Shown piece by piece: positions 54,927 through 63,922 of a stretch of 64,000 nt of DNA. The translations under genes were made by a program, and so were the position numbers. The notes below the pieces were generated by a model, which was given only the letters and a program-made list of their open reading frames with translations, ran no database searches and was not told the origin of the DNA. Origin of the DNA: Bacillota bacterium (lineage in GTDB: Bacteria > Bacillota > UBA5301); contig JACDOJ010000003.1 in the NCBI GenBank assembly GCA_017656135.1, forward strand, positions 57,788 to 121,787, written 5' to 3'. Numbering within the stretch: the first letter of the stretch is position 1; each line of letters starts with the position of its first letter.

Positions 54927-55847
54927 TCACCGTATTTTGCCAGCTACCAGCGAGCAACAGCCCCGGAAATATTGAACAGTATACCCCATTTCCCTGGCGT
55001 ATTCAATAGTTTGGGGTGAGGCGTAGGCGATGCCATCGACACCGGCATCCACAGCCAGCTTCTCATAGTAGGTTTTCCGGTCACCTGCTGGGCGGGCGCA
55101 ACCCAGCAGCAGGCTACGGCCTTCCAGTTGACACCGAGCCGCATCTAAAAGCCTTTTAACCTCCTCCGGCTCAGGAGGAGCTAACCCACTCATTCTTGAG
55201 CCTGGCAGCGGCGTCAGTATCACCAAGACCAGACCGGGGACGGGGTAGCCCGAAACCCACTGGATGGCCCTCTCTTCCCCAGCCCCGATGCGGCCGAAGT
55301 TCAGACCGGCCACCACGTGAGGCACTACCGTCAACCCTTCAGCGCAGAGACAGTCCAGGGCCTGAAGGTAATCTTGGGCTTTGTAGGGCAAGCCGTAGAC
55401 CTTAGAGACAGTTTCAGCATCGCCGATTAAATCCAAAAGAACCTGGTCTACGCCGACCCTCTTGAGTTCGGTGGCAGTTTGCTTATTAACCAGCCCGGTG
55501 TGAACCACTACCTTCAGACCGGCCTCTTTGAGGGCAGCTATTTCCGAAAGTTTGGCCTTAAGGGGGACTCTGCCGCGAGAGTCGGCTCCACCGCTCACCA
55601 GTACCCCCAGGCTTTTTTGGGCCACGAGTTTAGGAACGAGGCTGGCCAAGGCCCCCGGCTCACTGACATCCAGCATGTTTTTAATGAGACGCCGCCCACA
55701 GTGAGCGCAGTTCAAAGCGCACCTATCACCGGTAACACTGACCGCCACGAAGTCGGTGGGGCTGTTGCGGAAGCCCGAACCGCTGTCATACTTCTTGGCC
55801 GAGGGAGCAGCGACCCAAAGCGTCTTTTGGAGGCTGACCTTTACCAC
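54927..55847 (-). CDS. Radical SAM protein, candidate LipS-type lipoate synthase subunit
   Basis: CALNCAHCGRRL (CX3CX2C); overlaps a second radical SAM gene next to lipoate ligase and gcvH-like genes. Confidence 0.7.
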   Translation of the reverse strand: MVKVSLQKTLWVAAPSAKKYDSGSGFRNSPTDFVAVSVTGDRCALNCAHCGRRLIKNMLDVSEPGALASLVPKLVAQKSLGVLVSGGADSRGRVPLKAKLSEIAALKEAGLKVVVHTGLVNKQTATELKRVGVDQVLLDLIGDAETVSKVYGLPYKAQDYLQALDCLCAEGLTVVPHVVAGLNFGRIGAGEERAIQWVSGYPVPGLVLVILTPLPGSRMSGLAPPEPEEVKRLLDAARCQLEGRSLLLGCARPAGDRKTYYEKLAVDAGVDGIAYASPQTIEYAREMGYTVQYFRGCCSLVAGKIR

Positions 55848-56905
55848 GCGAGCTGCTCCTTTATCTCCGCTATATCCGACGGCTCAGGGGGAAAGGGAAA
55901 GTTGCGAATGGCCTCTGACGGTCTTTCATTGCCGTAGGGCCGGTTGCAGGCATACCGGCACGTCTTTCCGGGACAGCCAGAAGTCAAAAAAGCCTCTCCC
56001 TCCTCAATTACCTCGGCCAGGTCCGGGTAGCCAAAATCAGTGATTTTACCCTCAGAAAAAGTCATCTTCTGGGCTGTGTGCCCGCGCTCATTAATCAAGT
56101 ATCTGGCCAGCTGAATCCGGCGGTACTGACCTAACGGGGGCTGAAGATGGGCAGCCAAAGCACTTCCTGGCTCCGGGAAGAAGCTGAACAAGTGAGTGTG
56201 GGCACCTTGGTCTTGAGCTTCTTGAATCACCCGCACCATCTCCTCTTCACTCTCTCCCAGCCCCACAATCAGGTGGATTCCCACTTTAAAGGGCCCGAAG
56301 ACCTGGACAGCGGTCTCCACAGCCTGCCAGAATCGTTCCCAGCGGTGAGGGCCTTTAACACCCTCTCCCCGGTGCCTGGCGAAAAGCTGGGGAGTGGCAG
56401 CATCGATGGCGATTCCGCACCTGTCGGCACCGGCATCTTTGATGGCCGTAAGGCTACCCTCAAGGTCAGCCATGGCCGAAGGGGCCACGAGGGCACTGAT
56501 GGACAAGTCGGTTTCCCCTTTAAAACGCCGCACCAGCTCCACCGTATCCTGAAGGGCCTTAGGGTGAGTGAGCATGGAGATGCAAACCCGCTCCAGAGAG
56601 TGAGGATGGTTCTCAACCTGTCTCAACACAGTTTCCAAAGGATAAACCGGCCACCTGACCCTGATAAAGGTCCGACCAGAGCTAGGAACCAGCCTCTCTT
56701 GGGCCAGGCCGCAGTAACTGCACCGCCCTCTACAGCCATCTTCATAGGTGAGAAGCAGGTTCAGACAGCGGAGCTCAGCCCCTCGGTAAAAACGGCCGGG
56801 CTTAAGACCGATGGTCATAGCAGCAGCCAAACTGGTCTGGATGTACTCTGGGCTTTCTATTTTGCGGTCTTGAGGGATTGGGTTAACCCCCACTTGCGGT
56901 CTCAC
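55841..56905 (-). CDS. Radical SAM protein with C-terminal Cys cluster, candidate LipS-type lipoate synthase subunit
   Basis: EDGCRGRCSYCGLAQ (CX3CX2C) and C-terminal SGCPGKTCRYACNRPYGN auxiliary-cluster-like motif. Confidence 0.72.
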   Translation of the reverse strand: MRPQVGVNPIPQDRKIESPEYIQTSLAAAMTIGLKPGRFYRGAELRCLNLLLTYEDGCRGRCSYCGLAQERLVPSSGRTFIRVRWPVYPLETVLRQVENHPHSLERVCISMLTHPKALQDTVELVRRFKGETDLSISALVAPSAMADLEGSLTAIKDAGADRCGIAIDAATPQLFARHRGEGVKGPHRWERFWQAVETAVQVFGPFKVGIHLIVGLGESEEEMVRVIQEAQDQGAHTHLFSFFPEPGSALAAHLQPPLGQYRRIQLARYLINERGHTAQKMTFSEGKITDFGYPDLAEVIEEGEAFLTSGCPGKTCRYACNRPYGNERPSEAIRNFPFPPEPSDIAEIKEQLAW

Positions 56906-57986
56906 CCTTTCCGGAAAAAAACTTCTTGGCCTCTTGGAATAGGTGCAGAAAATCTTCGGGAGTCACACCCGGTATCTCTGCCTTTCGGAAAAACTCTTGA
57001 ATCACTTCAGAGATGGTTTCTTGTTCATAAGGAAGGTCCTTAAGACGGCTCTCCAGGTCCAAGATCGCCCTCGGCGGAATACAGAAAAAGTCGCCGGTAA
57101 TCAGGGCCTGTTTAATCCGTTTAGCCGGCACATTGACACTCACTGCCAAGTTAATAAGACCACCCGGTGTCTTGCGCATGGCTGTAACCATGCTGGTCGC
57201 GGTCTTTTTGCGAATCTGGTAGACCCAGTCCGCTGAGGCATAATAGGGTGCGAGCTTCCGGTAGCAGGCCTTTTCCTGGGCAGAGAAATCACCGGGGACG
57301 AACTGGATACCCAAAATCTTTCTGAAACCATTTAGTATAGCCTGCTTGATGACGGGTCTTGGGGGTATCTCCCCAAGCTCCCAAGCCAGGCAGGTCACCC
57401 GCTCTTTGGTGCTAGAAACCGCCTTATCCTTGAGCTTTTCCGCAGGGATCTTGAGAGAGCGGACCATTGTCTCCACATCCAAATCCACCAAGAGCGACCC
57501 GTGAAAAAGCAGGGCATCACCTAAATCGGTTCCACCGGTGCCGGAGATCTTCCGACCCCCAACCTCTATATCGTTTTTCGGTCGGAACCTGGCCTCGACC
57601 CCCAACTCCTTCAGGCCTGCGGCCACAGCCCGGCAACAGACCTCAAACAAGGCCCGCCGGTCCCAGGGCAAAGCGGGATCATCCCTCTTGGCCACCAGCT
57701 CCCACCCGACCTGGGATTCATCCTCATAGATGGCGCCGCCGCCGGTTAAGCGCCGGTTAACCTCCAAGCCGTGTTGGCGACAGTAGGCCAGGTTGACCTC
57801 CTGCTCTACATCTTGGTGGAAACCTACCAGCACAGCACGGGGCCGAAATTCCTCGAACCGAAAGAGGGGTTCACCCTCTGTTTGACTCATCACTTCCAGC
57901 AGAGCGGCATCCCAGGCCATATTTTCATGAGCCCGCAGGTGCCCTGGGTCAATCAATCGCCAGGTGGATCCGGTCTTAGCTCCCAA
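56883..57986 (-). CDS. Lipoate--protein ligase with A and B (C-terminal) domains
   Basis: NRRLTGGGAIYEDESQVGWELV, PKNDIEVGGRKISGTGG, C-terminal GGLINLAVSVNVPAKRIKQALITGDFF. Confidence 0.9.
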   Translation of the reverse strand: MGAKTGSTWRLIDPGHLRAHENMAWDAALLEVMSQTEGEPLFRFEEFRPRAVLVGFHQDVEQEVNLAYCRQHGLEVNRRLTGGGAIYEDESQVGWELVAKRDDPALPWDRRALFEVCCRAVAAGLKELGVEARFRPKNDIEVGGRKISGTGGTDLGDALLFHGSLLVDLDVETMVRSLKIPAEKLKDKAVSSTKERVTCLAWELGEIPPRPVIKQAILNGFRKILGIQFVPGDFSAQEKACYRKLAPYYASADWVYQIRKKTATSMVTAMRKTPGGLINLAVSVNVPAKRIKQALITGDFFCIPPRAILDLESRLKDLPYEQETISEVIQEFFRKAEIPGVTPEDFLHLFQEAKKFFSGKGETASGG

Positions 57987-58025
57987 AGTGGTTCCTCCTA
58001 ACTCAAGGATTCGGCTTCTCCAGTT

Positions 58026-58445
58026 TCAAGCGTTTCGCGCCAGTTCCGCCTCAAACCACTCGCTAAACTCAGGGGTACCGGGTTTCAGCAGGTTACTGAG
58101 CTCCTTCAAATCCTCGAATTTGATTTTGACCATCCACCCTTCACCGTAAGGATCCGCATTTATTGGGGATGGATCATCCTCCAGTCTGGTGTTGACCGCC
58201 GTAATCACGCCGGAAACCGGGGCGTAAACTTGGCCCACCCACTTACCGGACTCTATAGAGGCAAAGGGCTTTCCTTGAGCGACAACCTTTCCGAGAGGAG
58301 GTGCCTGGAAAAACAAAATCTCCCCGGCGATCTGCTGAACATAGTCAGTGGCACCGACAGTGACTTCAGCACCGTCTACTCGGGCCCAAAAGTGGTTCCT
58401 CTCATAATAGAGCTCTTCCGGAAACTCATAACCAGCGATTTGCAT
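58026..58445 (-). CDS. GcvH-like lipoyl-domain protein (GcvH or LbpA-type)
   Basis: VTVGATDYVQQIAGEILFFQAPPLGKVVAQGKPFASIESGKWVGQVYAPVSGVI, single lipoyl Lys. Confidence 0.88.
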   Translation of the reverse strand: MQIAGYEFPEELYYERNHFWARVDGAEVTVGATDYVQQIAGEILFFQAPPLGKVVAQGKPFASIESGKWVGQVYAPVSGVITAVNTRLEDDPSPINADPYGEGWMVKIKFEDLKELSNLLKPGTPEFSEWFEAELARNA

Positions 58446-58465
58446 CAAAATCCTCCTTTGATCCT

Positions 58466-58768
58466 CTATAACCACGGTACAACCTTGTGCTTCACAACCA
58501 GGTCCACAAAGCCGTCGTAACCCACGGTCTTCAGCTCCGTTAGGATCTTGGTGATTCCCCGGGCCCTCAGGTCCTCCTCCAGCACGTAGATTTCCACATC
58601 CTTGGCGGCCTTCCTCAAGGTCTCCTCCAACGGCGAACCCTGTTTAGCTCCGTAAACCCCGTCTTCGTATAGCAGGATGGCTGAGCCGGGCGCTGCCACT
58701 TGCAGACAGGTGCTTAAAGCCGTTGATCTGTAGGGTGAATCGTTGACCATGAAGAGCATGTCTTTCAA
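58466..58768 (-). CDS. DsrH/TusB-like sulfur relay protein
   Basis: MLFMVNDSPYRSTALSTCLQVAAPGSAILLYEDGVYGA; downstream of DsrF- and DsrE-like genes. Confidence 0.75.
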   Translation of the reverse strand: MKDMLFMVNDSPYRSTALSTCLQVAAPGSAILLYEDGVYGAKQGSPLEETLRKAAKDVEIYVLEEDLRARGITKILTELKTVGYDGFVDLVVKHKVVPWL

Positions 58769-58774
58769 CCCCGC

Positions 58775-59140
58775 TTAGAAAGATAAAACGATCTCAAAAT
58801 CGGCAAAAAGGGAGGCCAGATTCTCCCGATTCACAGGTTCCAGCCCCCCAATCAGTTCGGCAAGGGACAACCCTCTCTCCTGCAAGGACATCCTATCCAC
58901 ATATATTTTCCCCAACTCACAATCGGACTGTAAAGAAGCCAGGGCTTGATCCAGAGGACTCATGTTTAAGGCGGAAGGATCTTGCCCGGCCAGAGCCCAG
59001 AAAACTCCATCTTCCATAAGGACCAGGGAGACATCAGCTTGGAAGGCGGCAAGTCCTAAGACACTCCGGAAGCCTTCAGCAGTATAGCTGCTCCCGTAAG
59101 GAGCTTTGCGAAACAACACCAGTATTCTTTTACTCCTCAT
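58775..59140 (-). CDS. DsrF/TusC-like sulfur relay protein
   Basis: ILVLFRKAPYGSSYTAEGFRSVLGLAAFQADVSLVLMEDGVFWALAGQDP. Confidence 0.82.
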   Translation of the reverse strand: MRSKRILVLFRKAPYGSSYTAEGFRSVLGLAAFQADVSLVLMEDGVFWALAGQDPSALNMSPLDQALASLQSDCELGKIYVDRMSLQERGLSLAELIGGLEPVNRENLASLFADFEIVLSF

Positions 59141-59154
59141 CCTTCAGGCCACCT

Positions 59155-59508
59155 TTAATCCCCAAAAGTTACAAACCGGTCGGCACAGGCAATGAACTCA
59201 GAAAGTCGACCTAAACCCATCATCCGAATCCAGTCCGCCTTAATGTTTTGGGTCAGACCCCTGAACCGAGCACCAGCCGTACAAACAACCAACTCCACTC
59301 CTTGTTCGGCGATTTCCTGCCACATCTCGCCCAGGCTTCTCTCACCTGGAGGATTGATACCTTGGTTGGCAACATTCACTCCATCCATGTAGAAGAAAAC
59401 CCCGCAAATTTCGTGTCCTTTGGCCAGGGCCGCTTTCACAAAGTGATACGCCGAATCACTGGCCTGGTGCTGGTAGGGACCTTCCAAAACTAGGACCCCG
59501 ATTTTCAC
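59155..59508 (-). CDS. DsrE/TusD-like sulfur relay protein with conserved Cys
   Basis: IGVLVLEGPYQHQASDSAYHFVKAALAKGHEICGVFFYMDGVNVA; VELVVCTAGARFRGL around the candidate active Cys. Confidence 0.85.
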   Translation of the reverse strand: MKIGVLVLEGPYQHQASDSAYHFVKAALAKGHEICGVFFYMDGVNVANQGINPPGERSLGEMWQEIAEQGVELVVCTAGARFRGLTQNIKADWIRMMGLGRLSEFIACADRFVTFGD

Positions 59509-59578
59509 CTTCCCACCCCCAACTCGCCGGATACTTCATTTTCGTTAATATCTTCTTTTACGCCTACTTTTGTCCTGG

Positions 59579-59608
59579 TTGACTGGTATAAATTGGGGTT
59601 GATAAAAT
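59579..59608 (+). promoter_or_regulatory. Candidate sigma-A promoter of the arsR-tusA gene
   Basis: TTGACT - 18 bp - TAAAAT, upstream of the GTG start at 59630. Confidence 0.6.
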
Positions 59609-59629
59609 GTTTCTGTAGGGGGGGTTCTT

Positions 59630-60172
59630 GTGTTGACCAGCAGGGAGTGTGAGGCGGTAGCCAGTTTTCTCCAAGGACTCACCAATCCATTACGCCTGAA
59701 GATTCTCTACTGCCTGCGCTCCGGCGAGAAAAACGTCACCGAAATCACCGCCTGTACCGGCGAAAGGCAGCCCAATGTCTCCCATCAGCTGAAGGTCCTT
59801 GTCACCAAGGGGTATGTTTCCCGCCGCAAAGAGAGGCGCAAGGTCTACTACTCTCTCAACAGCGAAAAGATCGTCGAACTCTTGGACCAGGTCCGGGAAA
59901 TCATACTGTCGGAGTCCGGAGAGACGAGAGGAGCTAAAACTATGCAGGCCGACAAAGTTTTGGATGCTTTGGGACTGATGTGCCCGATGCCTATACAGAA
60001 ACTCGCAAAGGTCATCAAAGAGATCCAGATAGGGCAGGTGATTGAGGTCCGGGTGGATGATACCCTGACCGCATCAGATCTGCCCATCTGGTGCGAAAAG
60101 ACAGGTCAAGAACTGCTGGACACCTGCAAACACGAAGACTATACATCCTATTTTGTGCGCCGCCGGCGCTGA
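59630..60172 (+). CDS. In-frame fusion: ArsR-family wHTH regulator + C-terminal TusA/SirA sulfur carrier
   Basis: LTNPLRLKILYCLRSGEKNVTEITACTGERQPNVSHQLKVL...RRKVYYSL (ArsR) followed by DKVLDALGLMCPMPIQKLAKVIKEIQIGQVIEVRVDD (TusA CPxP). Confidence 0.9.
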   Translation: MLTSRECEAVASFLQGLTNPLRLKILYCLRSGEKNVTEITACTGERQPNVSHQLKVLVTKGYVSRRKERRKVYYSLNSEKIVELLDQVREIILSESGETRGAKTMQADKVLDALGLMCPMPIQKLAKVIKEIQIGQVIEVRVDDTLTASDLPIWCEKTGQELLDTCKHEDYTSYFVRRRR

Positions 60173-60174
60173 CA

Positions 60175-61041
60175 CTAGGCCAAAGCCTCCAGAACAGTAT
60201 CCCAAACCGAACTGATGTTCTTGCTGGCTTTACTCTCCGGATCCCTGATCACCACAGGTTCACCCTGTATACTCGCCTCTATCAAGGAATCATCGAAAGG
60301 CACTTTGCCGGCTACTCTGATTCTCTTTTTTCGGCAGAACTCCTCTACTTGCTGTGAGATCTCAGGAGCCAGGTCCCATTTATTGATGCAGACCAGAGTC
60401 GGAACCTTGAAGTGATTGCAAAGCCCCAGCAGACGTTCCAAGTCATGCAAACCGGCTACGGAAGGCTCGGTGATAATCAATGCCAGGTCCACCCCAGTCA
60501 AAGAAGAAATCACCGGACAGCCAAGTCCCGGTGGGCCGTCGACCAGCACGTAAGCATATCCTTGTCTTTCGGCAAGCTCCCTGGCTGCTTGGCGGACCTT
60601 GCTCACCAACTTCCCGGAGTTTTCTTCGGCCAGGCCTAATTTGGCGTGGATCAGCGGCCCGTAGGCGGTTTCCGAAACAAACCAGTATCCAGAGAGGTTT
60701 GGCCTCATCTCGATGGCGCCTTCCTCACAAGCATAGTAGCATACCTGGCAGCCCTCGCAGCCAATGGGATCAACCCTGAAGTTGCTGATAGCATTAAAGC
60801 GACAGAGCTGCAAACACTTTCCGCACTCAGTGCACTTCTCTGGATCAATGTAGGCCTTATCCAGACCGTAAAACTCATACCTCTCTTTGACCCGCGGCTT
60901 CAAAAGCAGATGCAGATTGGCAGCATCTACGTCACAGTCAGCCAAGACCTTATCCTGAGCCAAAGCCGCAAAGGAGCCAACAAACGAAGTTTTGCCGGTG
61001 CCGCCTTTGCCGCTAATTACTAATAGCTCTTTCATAGCCAA
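60175..61041 (-). CDS. MinD/Mrp-like P-loop ATPase with inserted 2x[4Fe-4S] ferredoxin domain
   Basis: LLVISGKGGTGKTSFVGSFAALA; CTECGKCLQLCRFNAI...CEGCQVCYYACEEGAI. Confidence 0.92.
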   Translation of the reverse strand: MAMKELLVISGKGGTGKTSFVGSFAALAQDKVLADCDVDAANLHLLLKPRVKERYEFYGLDKAYIDPEKCTECGKCLQLCRFNAISNFRVDPIGCEGCQVCYYACEEGAIEMRPNLSGYWFVSETAYGPLIHAKLGLAEENSGKLVSKVRQAARELAERQGYAYVLVDGPPGLGCPVISSLTGVDLALIITEPSVAGLHDLERLLGLCNHFKVPTLVCINKWDLAPEISQQVEEFCRKKRIRVAGKVPFDDSLIEASIQGEPVVIRDPESKASKNISSVWDTVLEALA

Positions 61042-61876
61042 CCTCCCTTTGCAATCGCTGCCACAGATCCCGAAATGTCTCTTTCCACTCAGGGTATTCT
61101 TCCACTATGCACCCACCCCGGGCGTACAAGGCGGCTAACCGTCGATTAAAGGGTATCTTAAGAAGAATGGGGATCTTCTCAGCCCGACAGTACTCCTCAA
61201 TGCGCCGGTCTCCCTGATCCGACCGGTTGATGATCACCCCGAAGGGTAGCCCCAGCTTTCTAACCATTCCTACAGCCAAAACCAGGTCATTGAGGCCGAA
61301 AGGAGTCGGCTCCGTCACCAGTAGACAGTAATCGGCCCCGCTGACTGAATTAACTACAGAGCAAGATGTGCCCGGAGGAGCGTCAATGATCACAACCCTT
61401 TGCCGCTCAGCTTTTTCCCGGACTGCCTTCACCACAGGGGAAGCCAGAGGCGTTCCTACCGCTAGCTTCCCGTGGGCAAACTTGATCGTTCCAGCATACC
61501 CCAACTCTACGACACCTATCTTCTTTGGTGCTTCTTTGATAGCCCCGGTGGGGCAGGCCAACAGACAGCCACCGCAGCCGTGGCATAATTCGGGGAAAGT
61601 CAACACCCTTTTACCCATGACAGCTATGGCATGAAAAGCACAAACTTCTGTACATCGACCGCACTTCAGGCACCTGGCCTCGTTAACCACTGGTATCTTG
61701 ATTTGAACCTCTTCAGTAGTCTCAAAGGTGGGTTTTAGAAACAGGTGTGCATTGGGTTCCTCAGTATCGCAATCCAAGACCTGGACCGGCAAGTTTTCTG
61801 CCAGAGTCAAGGCCAAATTGGTAGCGATGGTGGTCTTGCCCGTCCCACCTTTACCGCTGGCAACTGCAATGATCAT
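61013..61876 (-). CDS. MinD/Mrp-like P-loop ATPase with inserted 2x[4Fe-4S] ferredoxin domain (second copy)
   Basis: IIAVASGKGGTGKTTIATNLALTLAE; CLKCGRCTEVCAFHAI...CHGCGGCLLACPTGAI. Confidence 0.92.
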   Translation of the reverse strand: MIIAVASGKGGTGKTTIATNLALTLAENLPVQVLDCDTEEPNAHLFLKPTFETTEEVQIKIPVVNEARCLKCGRCTEVCAFHAIAVMGKRVLTFPELCHGCGGCLLACPTGAIKEAPKKIGVVELGYAGTIKFAHGKLAVGTPLASPVVKAVREKAERQRVVIIDAPPGTSCSVVNSVSGADYCLLVTEPTPFGLNDLVLAVGMVRKLGLPFGVIINRSDQGDRRIEEYCRAEKIPILLKIPFNRRLAALYARGGCIVEEYPEWKETFRDLWQRLQREVGYERAISN

Positions 61877-61888
61877 TGACGATCACTC

Positions 61889-62251
61889 CTAACCGTGGTG
61901 GCAATGGCCGTGTTCTCCCTCTTCGTGGTCGCAGAGATTCTCTCGGCTGACCAAAGTATCTGCCAGATAGGCAAGGATAGCCTCTTCTACGGAACCGGAA
62001 ACCCCGGTAAAAGTCTCAATTCCTTGCTCGCTAAACAGGCCCTGCGCCCGAGGGCCCATGCCGCCGGCGATTATACAACAAACCCCCAGATTAGAGAGGT
62101 AACGGGGTAAGAAACCCGGTTCATGCCCTGGATTAGGGATGACTGTCTTACTGACTACTTTACCGTCAGCCACATTGTAAATGGTGTAGGCAGGGCAGCG
62201 CCCGAAATGACTGGCCACACTGTCCCCATCAGTGGCAATCGCGATCTTCAC
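61889..62251 (-). CDS. NifX/NifB-like (dinitrogenase Fe-Mo cofactor biosynthesis) domain protein with His/Cys-rich tail
   Basis: MKIAIATDGDSVASHFGRCPAYTIYNVADGKV...CCIIAGGMGPRA; tail CDHEEGEHGHCHHG. Confidence 0.88.
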   Translation of the reverse strand: MKIAIATDGDSVASHFGRCPAYTIYNVADGKVVSKTVIPNPGHEPGFLPRYLSNLGVCCIIAGGMGPRAQGLFSEQGIETFTGVSGSVEEAILAYLADTLVSRENLCDHEEGEHGHCHHG

Positions 62252-62256
62252 CGTTC

Positions 62257-62625
62257 TTACCTCCTTGTGCCAAAATGCGGCCCCACCATGGCCTTCAAAA
62301 CTGGTTTTAACTGGTGGTTTTTATACCTGGCCAGAGCCTCTCTGACCGAACACGAATCTACCGAATAGACCTCAATGTCGGAAGCTTCCAAGGCTTCCAT
62401 AGCCTTAGGGCCAATATGACCTGTAATCAAAGCCTTAGCCCCTTGCCCGGCAACAAACTGGGCGGCTTGGACACCTGCTCCACCGGAGGACCCAGCGCCC
62501 AAGTTTTCAACTACTTCAAATTTCTCGTTCTCCGGATCAATTAGGATAAAATAATGACATCTCCCAAACCTCTCATCCACGGTGGCATCTAAATCGGTGC
62601 CCTGAGATGTTACCGCTACTTTCAC
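62257..62625 (-). CDS. NifX/NifB-like (dinitrogenase Fe-Mo cofactor biosynthesis) domain protein
   Basis: VAVTSQGTDLDATVDERFGRCHYFILIDPENEKFEVVEN...ALITGHIGPKAMEAL. Confidence 0.9.
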   Translation of the reverse strand: MKVAVTSQGTDLDATVDERFGRCHYFILIDPENEKFEVVENLGAGSSGGAGVQAAQFVAGQGAKALITGHIGPKAMEALEASDIEVYSVDSCSVREALARYKNHQLKPVLKAMVGPHFGTRR

Positions 62626-62652
62626 CTTAAACTCACCTTCCCTGAGAATATA

Positions 62653-62690
62653 GGGGGGGGGAAACGGTCAGCCTCTCTACCGTCCCCCCC
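62653..62690 (-). promoter_or_regulatory. Strong GC-rich hairpin between the DUF5320 and NifX-like genes
   Basis: minus GGGGGGGACGGT...ACCGTTTCCCCCCCCC. Confidence 0.55.
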
Positions 62691-62710
62691 AAAGCAAAGC
62701 CGGCAGCCCA

Positions 62711-63082
62711 TTAATCTTCATGGCCCCTGTCTTTGCCCTCTTCTAAGTCCCGCAAGTAGTCCTTGATCTCGTCCAACCGGTCCTGCAGGATCTCTGCCTG
62801 ACGCTTAAGCAAAGACGCTTCCTCTCTCTTAGTAAGACCCGTAGCATAACCTGGGTGTGACGCACCAAACCAGCCAAAACCAGCGCCAGACCTGACCCAA
62901 CCTGGCAAACCGGTGACATAGTACATGTGGCGCCACCTCCTGCCTCCGCTGAAACCGCCCCAGCGGAAAGTCGGGTTCATAAAACCAGGAACCCGGAACC
63001 CAGAACAATAGCCCAAACCCCTTCCTGTCATTGGTCCTAGAAAGTTCGGGCCGCTCCCATCACCACGCGGCACCAAAACCAC
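62711..63082 (-). CDS. DUF5320 domain-containing protein
   Basis: PRGDGSGPNFLGPMTGRGLGYCSGF and C-terminal coiled coil KREEASLLKRQAEILQDRLDEIKDYLRDLE. Confidence 0.85.
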   Translation of the reverse strand: MVLVPRGDGSGPNFLGPMTGRGLGYCSGFRVPGFMNPTFRWGGFSGGRRWRHMYYVTGLPGWVRSGAGFGWFGASHPGYATGLTKREEASLLKRQAEILQDRLDEIKDYLRDLEEGKDRGHED

Positions 63083-63193
63083 CTCCTCTTTATGGTCGTA
63101 TGTTCATTATTACTATACCCATATTTATGGACATATGTCAATAACTAATTTAAAAAAATTTGCCTTTTCAGGCAAAGGTTTGCTAGGTACTTG

Positions 63194-63922
63194 TTACGTG
63201 TGACTCAAAACTTCCACATCTAAATCGCTCCAACTCTCTGCGACTTCTTGGAGGAACCGGCCGGGTACCGGCTGGCAGCCTGGTTCGGCCGGGGGTCGGA
63301 CAATGGTGTTGAGTTGAACCTTATCGGGTTTAATTTTGAGTATGGTCTCGTGAAGCCTAGAAAGGCTTTTGGGAGAATCGTTCACTCCCTGAACTATAAG
63401 TATCTCCAGCCAGATCGGACCGCTAAACTCCGACCTAAATTTGATTAACCCTTCGACAATTCCGGTCAAGTCGATATCCTTATGAGGCCGGTCGACCCGC
63501 AAAAACTCCTCTCTGGTGCAGGCGTCAAGTGAAGGTAAAACCAAATCACAGAGGGCGGCTTCTTGACGGACCTTCGGCTCGGAAAAAAGGGATGAATTGG
63601 TCAATAACGCCACCTTAAGATCTGGATAAGCAGCCTTGATCATCTTAGTCAACTGGCCCAGCTTCGAGTAAAGGGTGGGTTCTCCCGACCCTGAAAAGGT
63701 CACACAGTCAGGAAAAGGGTGACTGGCGAGATAGTCGGAAAGCTCCTTAAATACTTCCTCCACAGGGTAAAACTCGGCCCTCTCTGTGGTGAGCCTGGTG
63801 GTACGGCCGCGTTCACAGTAAACGCAATTGAAGGTGCAGGTTTTATAGGGGATCACGTCAATCCCCAAGGATACTCCTAACCTGCGTGATGATACCGGTC
63901 CAAAAAGATACTGGTAACTCAT
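63194..63922 (-). CDS. Radical SAM protein
   Basis: FGPVSSRRLGVSLGIDVIPYKTCTFNCVYCERGRTT (CX3CX2C); VTFSGSGEPTLYSKL. Confidence 0.92.
   Translation of the reverse strand: MSYQYLFGPVSSRRLGVSLGIDVIPYKTCTFNCVYCERGRTTRLTTERAEFYPVEEVFKELSDYLASHPFPDCVTFSGSGEPTLYSKLGQLTKMIKAAYPDLKVALLTNSSLFSEPKVRQEAALCDLVLPSLDACTREEFLRVDRPHKDIDLTGIVEGLIKFRSEFSGPIWLEILIVQGVNDSPKSLSRLHETILKIKPDKVQLNTIVRPPAEPGCQPVPGRFLQEVAESWSDLDVEVLSHT

Follow-up and report, generated by a model that had tools for sequence, protein, structure and literature searches.

A DsrEFH-TusA-lipoyl carrier cluster without Hdr genes in a Bacillota bacterium, and the possible use of lipoic acid as a sulfur carrier

Lipoate is the swinging arm of 2-oxoacid dehydrogenases and of glycine cleavage, and since 2018 it has also been recognized as a part of Hdr-like sulfur oxidation. 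What does it mean when genes for sulfur carriers are joined to genes for a lipoyl carrier and its lipoylation, with no Hdr genes beside them? Such a cluster occupies positions 54927-60172 of a 64,000-nucleotide stretch of a Bacillota bacterium genome (contig JACDOJ010000003.1; hereafter, the window). The initial annotation of the window described seven packed minus-strand genes diverging from an ArsR-TusA gene. All eight genes are found where that annotation placed them, with family matches far above chance in Pfam and NCBIfam profile searches, and the minus-strand series dsrE, dsrF, dsrH, gcvH-like, lpl, lipS2, lipS1 has only overlaps or gaps of at most ~40 nucleotides. The features are as follows.

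54927..55847, minus strand: lipS1, predicted radical SAM protein for the second sulfur insertion (C6) of lipoyl synthase; best family NF053742 (3e-65)
55841..56905, minus strand: lipS2, predicted radical SAM protein for the first sulfur insertion (C8); best family NF053743 (2e-67)
56883..57986, minus strand: lpl, predicted lipoate/octanoate-protein ligase of the Lpl(AB) type; LplA-B_cat PF21948 (1e-45) and Lip_prot_lig_C PF10437 (1e-10)
58026..58445, minus strand: GcvH-like lipoyl carrier; GCV_H PF01597 (3e-36), ESGKWVG site
58466..58768, minus strand: dsrH (TusB-like); PF04077 (1e-27), TIGR03011 (96 bits, above cut-off)
58775..59140, minus strand: dsrF (TusC-like); PF02635 (4e-19), TIGR03010 (4e-20)
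59155..59508, minus strand: dsrE (TusD-like), predicted persulfide-bearing subunit; DsrE (4e-27), TIGR03012 (93 bits, above cut-off)
59509..59629, no strand: divergent intergenic region of 121 bp, presumed from its position to hold the operator of the regulator
59630..60172, plus strand: arsR-tusA fusion frame; HTH_5 (3e-11), HTH_metalloreg and TusA (2e-18), with ArsR at residues 1-95 and TusA from residue 105
59942..60172, plus strand: tusA alone, possibly translated as a free protein from an internal ATG preceded by GAGAGGAG

The reading that we favor, to which we give an even chance, is that the cluster is an Hdr-less variant of an LbpA-type lipoyl-sulfane-sulfur module, that is, the carrier and lipoylation half of a Firmicutes Hdr-linked DsrEFH-TusA-LbpA-type operon. 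That operon is seen in the annotated neighborhoods of two Firmicutes genomes, G019 and G236, where it runs ArsR-DsrE-DsrF-DsrH-TusA-DsrE3-GcvH-HdrC-HdrB-HdrA-FlpD/MvhD-like-Lpl-LipT-LipS2-LipS1 (the FlpD/MvhD-like label was assigned by eye). The cluster is collinear with it, sharing ArsR, DsrE/F/H, TusA, the GcvH-like carrier, Lpl, LipS2 and LipS1 in the same order, but TusA has moved onto ArsR in a fused, divergent gene, and DsrE3, HdrC, HdrB, HdrA, the FlpD-like gene and LipT are absent from the cluster. Hence, the joining of TusA-DsrEFH to lipoate genes that the initial annotation singled out as unusual is real but not unique. The gene order of a known sulfur-metabolism operon minus its central enzyme, together with a second, dedicated lipoate set in the genome, suggests a sulfur-carrying role for lipoic acid here rather than a supply of sulfur to lipoate synthesis by the carriers.

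Are the two radical SAM proteins LipS1 and LipS2? Both score below the equivalog cut-off (LipS1, 220 bits against 230 for NF053742; LipS2, 228 bits against 270 for NF053743), yet the LipS1 match is full-length and to its best family by far, and that of LipS2 covers the whole model length. LipS1 residues C43/C47/C50, C250, C297, C298 and H177 are invariant in all 27 LipS1 sequences aligned, as are C58/C62/C65, C108, C311 and C320 of LipS2 (27/27). The LipS1 set, a CX3CX2C motif with three C-terminal auxiliary cysteines and a histidine, is the ligand pattern of Thermococcus kodakarensis LipS1, and LipS2 likewise has CX3CX2C and three further cysteines, as do both T. kodakarensis proteins (PMC9585515). 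Judged by sequence, both proteins are LipS1/LipS2 relatives despite their sub-cut-off scores, as first annotated. A search of LipS1 and LipS2 against solved structures gave no match, and a LipS2 scan of the named genomes returned two loci only, one of them masked. The ligase does carry the A and B domains ascribed to it, beside lipS1 and lipS2 as in the sLpl(AB)-LipS1/LipS2 system. It is 62% identical to the Lpl of the nearest relative, G002, and 29% identical to a glycine-cleavage-linked Lpl of its own genome.

This second ligase belongs to a second lipoyl synthase set. The genome (G000; 1.9 Mb in 86 contigs, 99.4% complete) was searched gene by gene. On contig C1, a complete gcvT-gcvH-gcvPA-gcvPB operon is followed by a second LipS1-LipS2-Lpl set, with no DsrEFH. 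The proteins of the cluster and of C1 are only 29-39% identical, and a tree of concatenated LipS1 and LipS2 splits the glycine-cleavage-linked type from the cluster type with 100% support, the cluster being sister to G002, a member of the same family. One clade is linked to glycine-cleavage operons; the other, which contains the cluster and is called LbpA-type here, is found with GcvH-like carriers and either Hdr or GlcD/F enzymes. Given two sets of low identity and a fully supported split, we infer from linkage that LipS1, LipS2 and Lpl of the cluster form a dedicated second set, with glycine cleavage served by its own. A lipA/lipB system elsewhere in the genome had been named beforehand as a possible counterargument. 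No LipA match exceeds the family cut-off in this genome (the control did so in 10/14 genomes; LipB and LipM were not searched), but the C1 set is a second, non-LipA lipoyl synthase. Contig C6 carries a third GcvH, in a different subclade from the cluster carrier, with GlcD-like and GlcF-like (CCG) genes and an LplA.

Could the missing Hdr enzymes be encoded away from the cluster? A PF02754 search of the genome for HdrB-type proteins found only GlcF-like, fused GlcD-CCG and DsrK-like proteins, and a search with the G019 HdrA matched nothing beyond segments of ferredoxin type and a single short flavin-binding stretch. These results speak against an Hdr block elsewhere in the assembly, where the hdrA and hdrB genes that mark sHdr sulfur oxidation were not found. 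LipT was not found in the genome either, in a search with no positive control there, though the same query detects LipT in many other loci. The initial annotation had seen neither sHdr nor glycine-cleavage P/T genes; for sHdr this holds, with none adjacent, but for P/T it is true of the window only, given the operon on C1. Two CCG genes have features of their own. A 1007-residue fusion of a GlcD-like FAD oxidase with a GlcF-like CCG protein is encoded on contig C7 (L099:4960-7983). On contig C42 (L097:1391-3427), a GlcD-CCG fusion frame is without most of its GlcD part; its start lies within a short sequence, another copy of which is found near L097:4557, and the frame looks disrupted by a small repeat.

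The gene of the carrier most likely starts at ATG 58445, behind a ribosome-binding site, AAAGGAGG, GTG 58475 being less likely. The lipoylation site reads ESGKWVG, with the lysine present. The KWVG motif is common, with small variations, to Hdr-linked and most GlcD/F-linked carriers, whereas glycine-cleavage H proteins mostly have ESVKAVSD. The cluster protein also falls outside the glycine-cleavage clade and has no gcvT or gcvP neighbors.

The DsrE cysteine in VCTAGARFRG aligns with that in SCGACSKFRG of the Hdr-linked DsrE and is taken as the Cys78 site, and a DsrH cysteine at residue 21 is close to the position of Cys20 in A. vinosum DsrH. With a DsrH domain, the DsrE active-site cysteine and adjacent E, F and H genes, the set resembles three-subunit DsrEFH (type I) and TusBCD, which share the DsrE and DsrH cysteines (PMC3397948), but the usual partner, DsrC/TusE, was not found in the genome. 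The ArsR part of the fusion is 52% and the TusA part 53% identical to the separate genes of G019. An internal ATG at 59942 has a good ribosome-binding site and lies exactly at the start of stand-alone TusA in relatives, where MQADKVLDALGLMCPMPI aligns with MQADAVLDARGLLCPMPI. Therefore, both the fusion and free TusA may be made. Sulfane-sulfur sensors of the ArsR type, such as sHdrR and SoxR, have two sensor cysteines (Cys50 and Cys116 in H. denitrificans sHdrR). The ArsR domain here has C7, C28 and C42, and on inspection, without alignment to sHdrR, none was seen in the last ArsR helix; the TusA cysteine could substitute for one there. AT-rich TTAAT elements lie upstream of arsR in relatives, and ATTAATAATTTAAAGATCATTAAT precedes arsR in both G019 and G236. 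The 121-bp intergenic region of the cluster has no clear operator palindrome and no clear counterpart of ATTAATAATTTAAAGATCATTAAT.

Does DsrEFH go with the lipoyl synthase or with the lipoyl carrier? DsrH occurs in 5/199 relatives, and four of these five are among the 15 with LbpA-type LipS1 (Fisher p = 1e-4, or 1e-3 without the genome studied here, kinship not corrected for). Eleven of these 15 genomes have no DsrH. Among seven genomes of the class, no other has DsrH, or a DsrE or DsrF match comparable to that of the cluster. Gene order varies in the wider sample: G119 has DsrEFH-TusA-DsrE3-Lpl-GcvH-HdrCBA with the LipS genes elsewhere, and G181 and G301 have ArsR-DsrEFH-TusA-DsrE3. The expectation that relatives keep DsrEFH next to lipoate genes is borne out by the collinear operons of G019 and G236, but not by most relatives. 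In the other setting of LbpA-type LipS (G043, G047, G052, G074, G084, G111, G128 and G155), LipS1, LipS2, usually LipT, Lpl and one or two GcvH-like carriers accompany GlcD/GlcF-like flavin/CCG proteins, with no DsrEFH. A third, unrelated family has TusA, a YeeE-like transporter, DsrE, DsrF and DsrH followed by GcvH in G252 and in G123, the latter with a transposase between; in G383, the same series is followed by a lipoamide dehydrogenase, identified by eye (TusA-YeeE-DsrE-DsrF-DsrH loci L113:1693-4627, L114:1-3070 and L095:8047-12455, one copy transposase-split). No LbpA-type LipS1 was detected in G123, the sole member of this family searched. DsrEFH therefore goes with the lipoyl carrier system and not with lipoyl synthase as such, because synthase sets are often without DsrEFH, yet DsrEFH adjoins GcvH or lipoamide dehydrogenase in an unrelated family. 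The link between DsrEFH and lipoyl carriers therefore recurs in two or more independent genomic contexts. The GlcD/GlcF setting is itself a recurring Firmicutes cluster of one or two GcvH, GlcD-like, GlcF-like, Lpl, LipT, LipS2 and LipS1 genes (L042, L045, L046, L050, L053, L054 and L058), which places a lipoyl carrier with a glycolate-oxidase-like complex.

How might an Hdr-less module work? First, by analogy with their families, Lpl(AB) would attach octanoate or lipoate to the lysine of the KWVG-type carrier, and LipS2 and then LipS1 would insert two sulfurs from their auxiliary [4Fe-4S] clusters. These clusters are the published sulfur source of LipS1/LipS2 (PMC9585515), and the cysteines that hold them are all retained. 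Second, DsrE of DsrEFH, with TusA, may exchange persulfide sulfur with the dihydrolipoyl arm, in either direction, as gene linkage and the published role of LbpA suggest: Hyphomicrobium requires LbpA for Hdr-like sulfur oxidation, and dihydrolipoate can act as an acceptor of sulfane sulfur (PMC6067878). With no DsrC/TusE in the genome to accept sulfur, the lipoyl arm is proposed to carry the substrate. Third, and this weakest step is a guess, a flavin/Fe-S (CCG) oxidoreductase from another locus could turn over the loaded or disulfide-form carrier. It might be the GlcD/GlcF-like pair on C6, which has its own GcvH, the fused GlcD-CCG protein on C7, or the TusA-DsrM-like-DsrK-like cluster on contig C9. 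ArsR(-TusA) would repress the cluster until sulfane sulfur is present. A fuller version, in which an Hdr-free relay ends on the lipoyl arm, DsrEFH/TusA load a carrier that replaces DsrC, a GlcD/GlcF- or DsrMK-type CCG enzyme turns it over, and the carrier domain of the ArsR-TusA fusion senses sulfane sulfur, is possible but doubtful.

Several observations weigh against an Hdr-less sulfur module. The arrangement occurs in 1/398 sampled genomes of the phylum, that being the genome studied here. No partner oxidoreductase adjoins the cluster; it would be encoded elsewhere or lost. The nearest relative, G002, keeps gcvH-lpl-lipS2-lipS1 but not DsrEFH, and therefore the carrier can work without DsrEFH. 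No dsrH end lies in the 81 nucleotides that precede gcvH in G002, and DsrH was not found in the G002 assembly, although dsrEFH could lie farther upstream in an unassembled gap. The cluster carrier has no cysteine and therefore fails the two-cysteine feature of proteobacterial LbpA, one near each terminus. The Hdr-linked carriers of G019 and G236 likewise lack cysteine, and this hallmark is proteobacterial, with some archaeal LbpA exempt (PMC6067878). LbpA is also encoded with Hdr-like genes, and here none is adjacent, nor does the genome encode an HdrB-type CCG protein or HdrA; the carrier can be called LbpA-like, not LbpA. Finally, C9 has a truncated DsrE3-like frame (L098:8233-8427) in which the start and end of DsrE3 are joined and the middle is missing, beside genes for TusA, a DsrM-like membrane protein and a DsrK-like CCG protein (L098:5971-8200). 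This remnant suggests gene loss in progress.

The last point leads to the strongest rival, which is serious although on balance unlikely: that an ancestral ArsR-DsrEFH-TusA-DsrE3-LbpA-Hdr-Lpl-LipT-LipS operon has lost its Hdr core and is decaying, with no working sulfur pathway left, and that its lipoylation genes may persist to serve the GlcD/F-linked carrier on C6. Collinearity with Hdr, DsrE3 and LipT missing, the DsrE3-like fragment, the shortened GlcD part on C42 and the arsR-tusA fusion would all fit. However, none of the eight frames is broken and the catalytic cysteines are conserved, ribosome-binding sites are good and packing is tight, and matches to the DsrE/F/H families are still clear.

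The idea that the initial annotation put first now seems improbable, namely that persulfide sulfur from DsrEFH and TusA is used to build the lipoyl group, for instance through renewal of the auxiliary Fe-S clusters in LipS1/LipS2. The genes are physically linked in the cluster and in the G019/G236 operon, and LipS enzymes consume auxiliary-cluster sulfide that needs replacement (PMC9585515). Nevertheless, DsrEFH is missing from the C1 set, from the cluster of G002 and from the majority of LbpA-type LipS clusters, and it adjoins GcvH or lipoamide dehydrogenase in a family with no such LipS detected in the member searched; nothing speaks specifically for it, LipS sulfur coming from the auxiliary clusters. 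The alternative raised at the same time, that the lipoylated carrier handles sulfur itself, has fared better, the DsrEFH-carrier link that it predicts being seen independently in a family whose searched member, G123, shows no LbpA-type LipS1. It is also improbable that the carrier serves the C6 GlcD/GlcF-like flavoprotein in organic-acid or redox metabolism, with DsrEFH unrelated. Many relatives do have LbpA-type LipS clusters with GlcD/GlcF, one or two GcvH and no DsrEFH, and C6 has GlcD/GlcF, GcvH and LplA, but that GcvH is its own and of another subclade. A role of DsrEFH as TusBCD in tRNA 2-thiolation, with lipoyl adjacency due to chance or shared regulation, is very improbable: the NCBIfam names of the three proteins are TusB/C/D, but no TusE/DsrC was found in the genome, and within the phylum DsrEFH is uncommon and tends to be found together with LbpA-type LipS.

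How does an Hdr-less module of this kind compare with known systems? The sHdr-LbpA and sLpl(AB)-LipS1/LipS2 systems of Hyphomicrobium, Thioalkalivibrio and Aquificae also cluster a GcvH-like carrier, Lpl(AB), LipS1 and LipS2 with TusA, DsrE-type sulfurtransferases and an ArsR-type regulator (PMC6067878, PMC10332631, PMC12423496). The cluster differs in having full DsrEFH instead of DsrE3 and a carrier without the two LbpA cysteines, and its genome in that no sHdr or LipT was found. Unlike the T. kodakarensis LipS1/LipS2 system, the cluster has an Lpl(AB) with fused domains, and its genome holds a paralogous second set. Sulfobacillus hdr clusters I and II combine DsrE, TusA, gcsH and lpl with HdrABC (PMC4378227). 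Earlier papers describe LbpA-dependent sulfur oxidation, LipS1/LipS2/Lpl(AB), and Hdr clusters that contain DsrE/TusA/gcsH/lpl in Sulfobacillus (PMC6067878, PMC10332631, PMC4378227). In the open-licence literature, we found no description of a complete DsrEFH-lipoyl carrier cluster without Hdr, of an ArsR-TusA fusion beside such a cluster, or of two paralogous LipS1/LipS2 sets with separate clients per genome. What are the implications? First, a spore-former genome that keeps the carrier, dedicated lipoylation enzymes and full DsrEFH/TusA but no Hdr isolates the carrier-sulfurtransferase step, which becomes testable alone. Second, one cell can contain LipS1/LipS2 of two paralogous clades, each apparently with its own client carrier.

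Adjoining the cluster, positions 60175-63922 of the window encode two MinD/Mrp-like ATPases with ferredoxin domains, two NifX/NifB-type proteins and one radical SAM protein.

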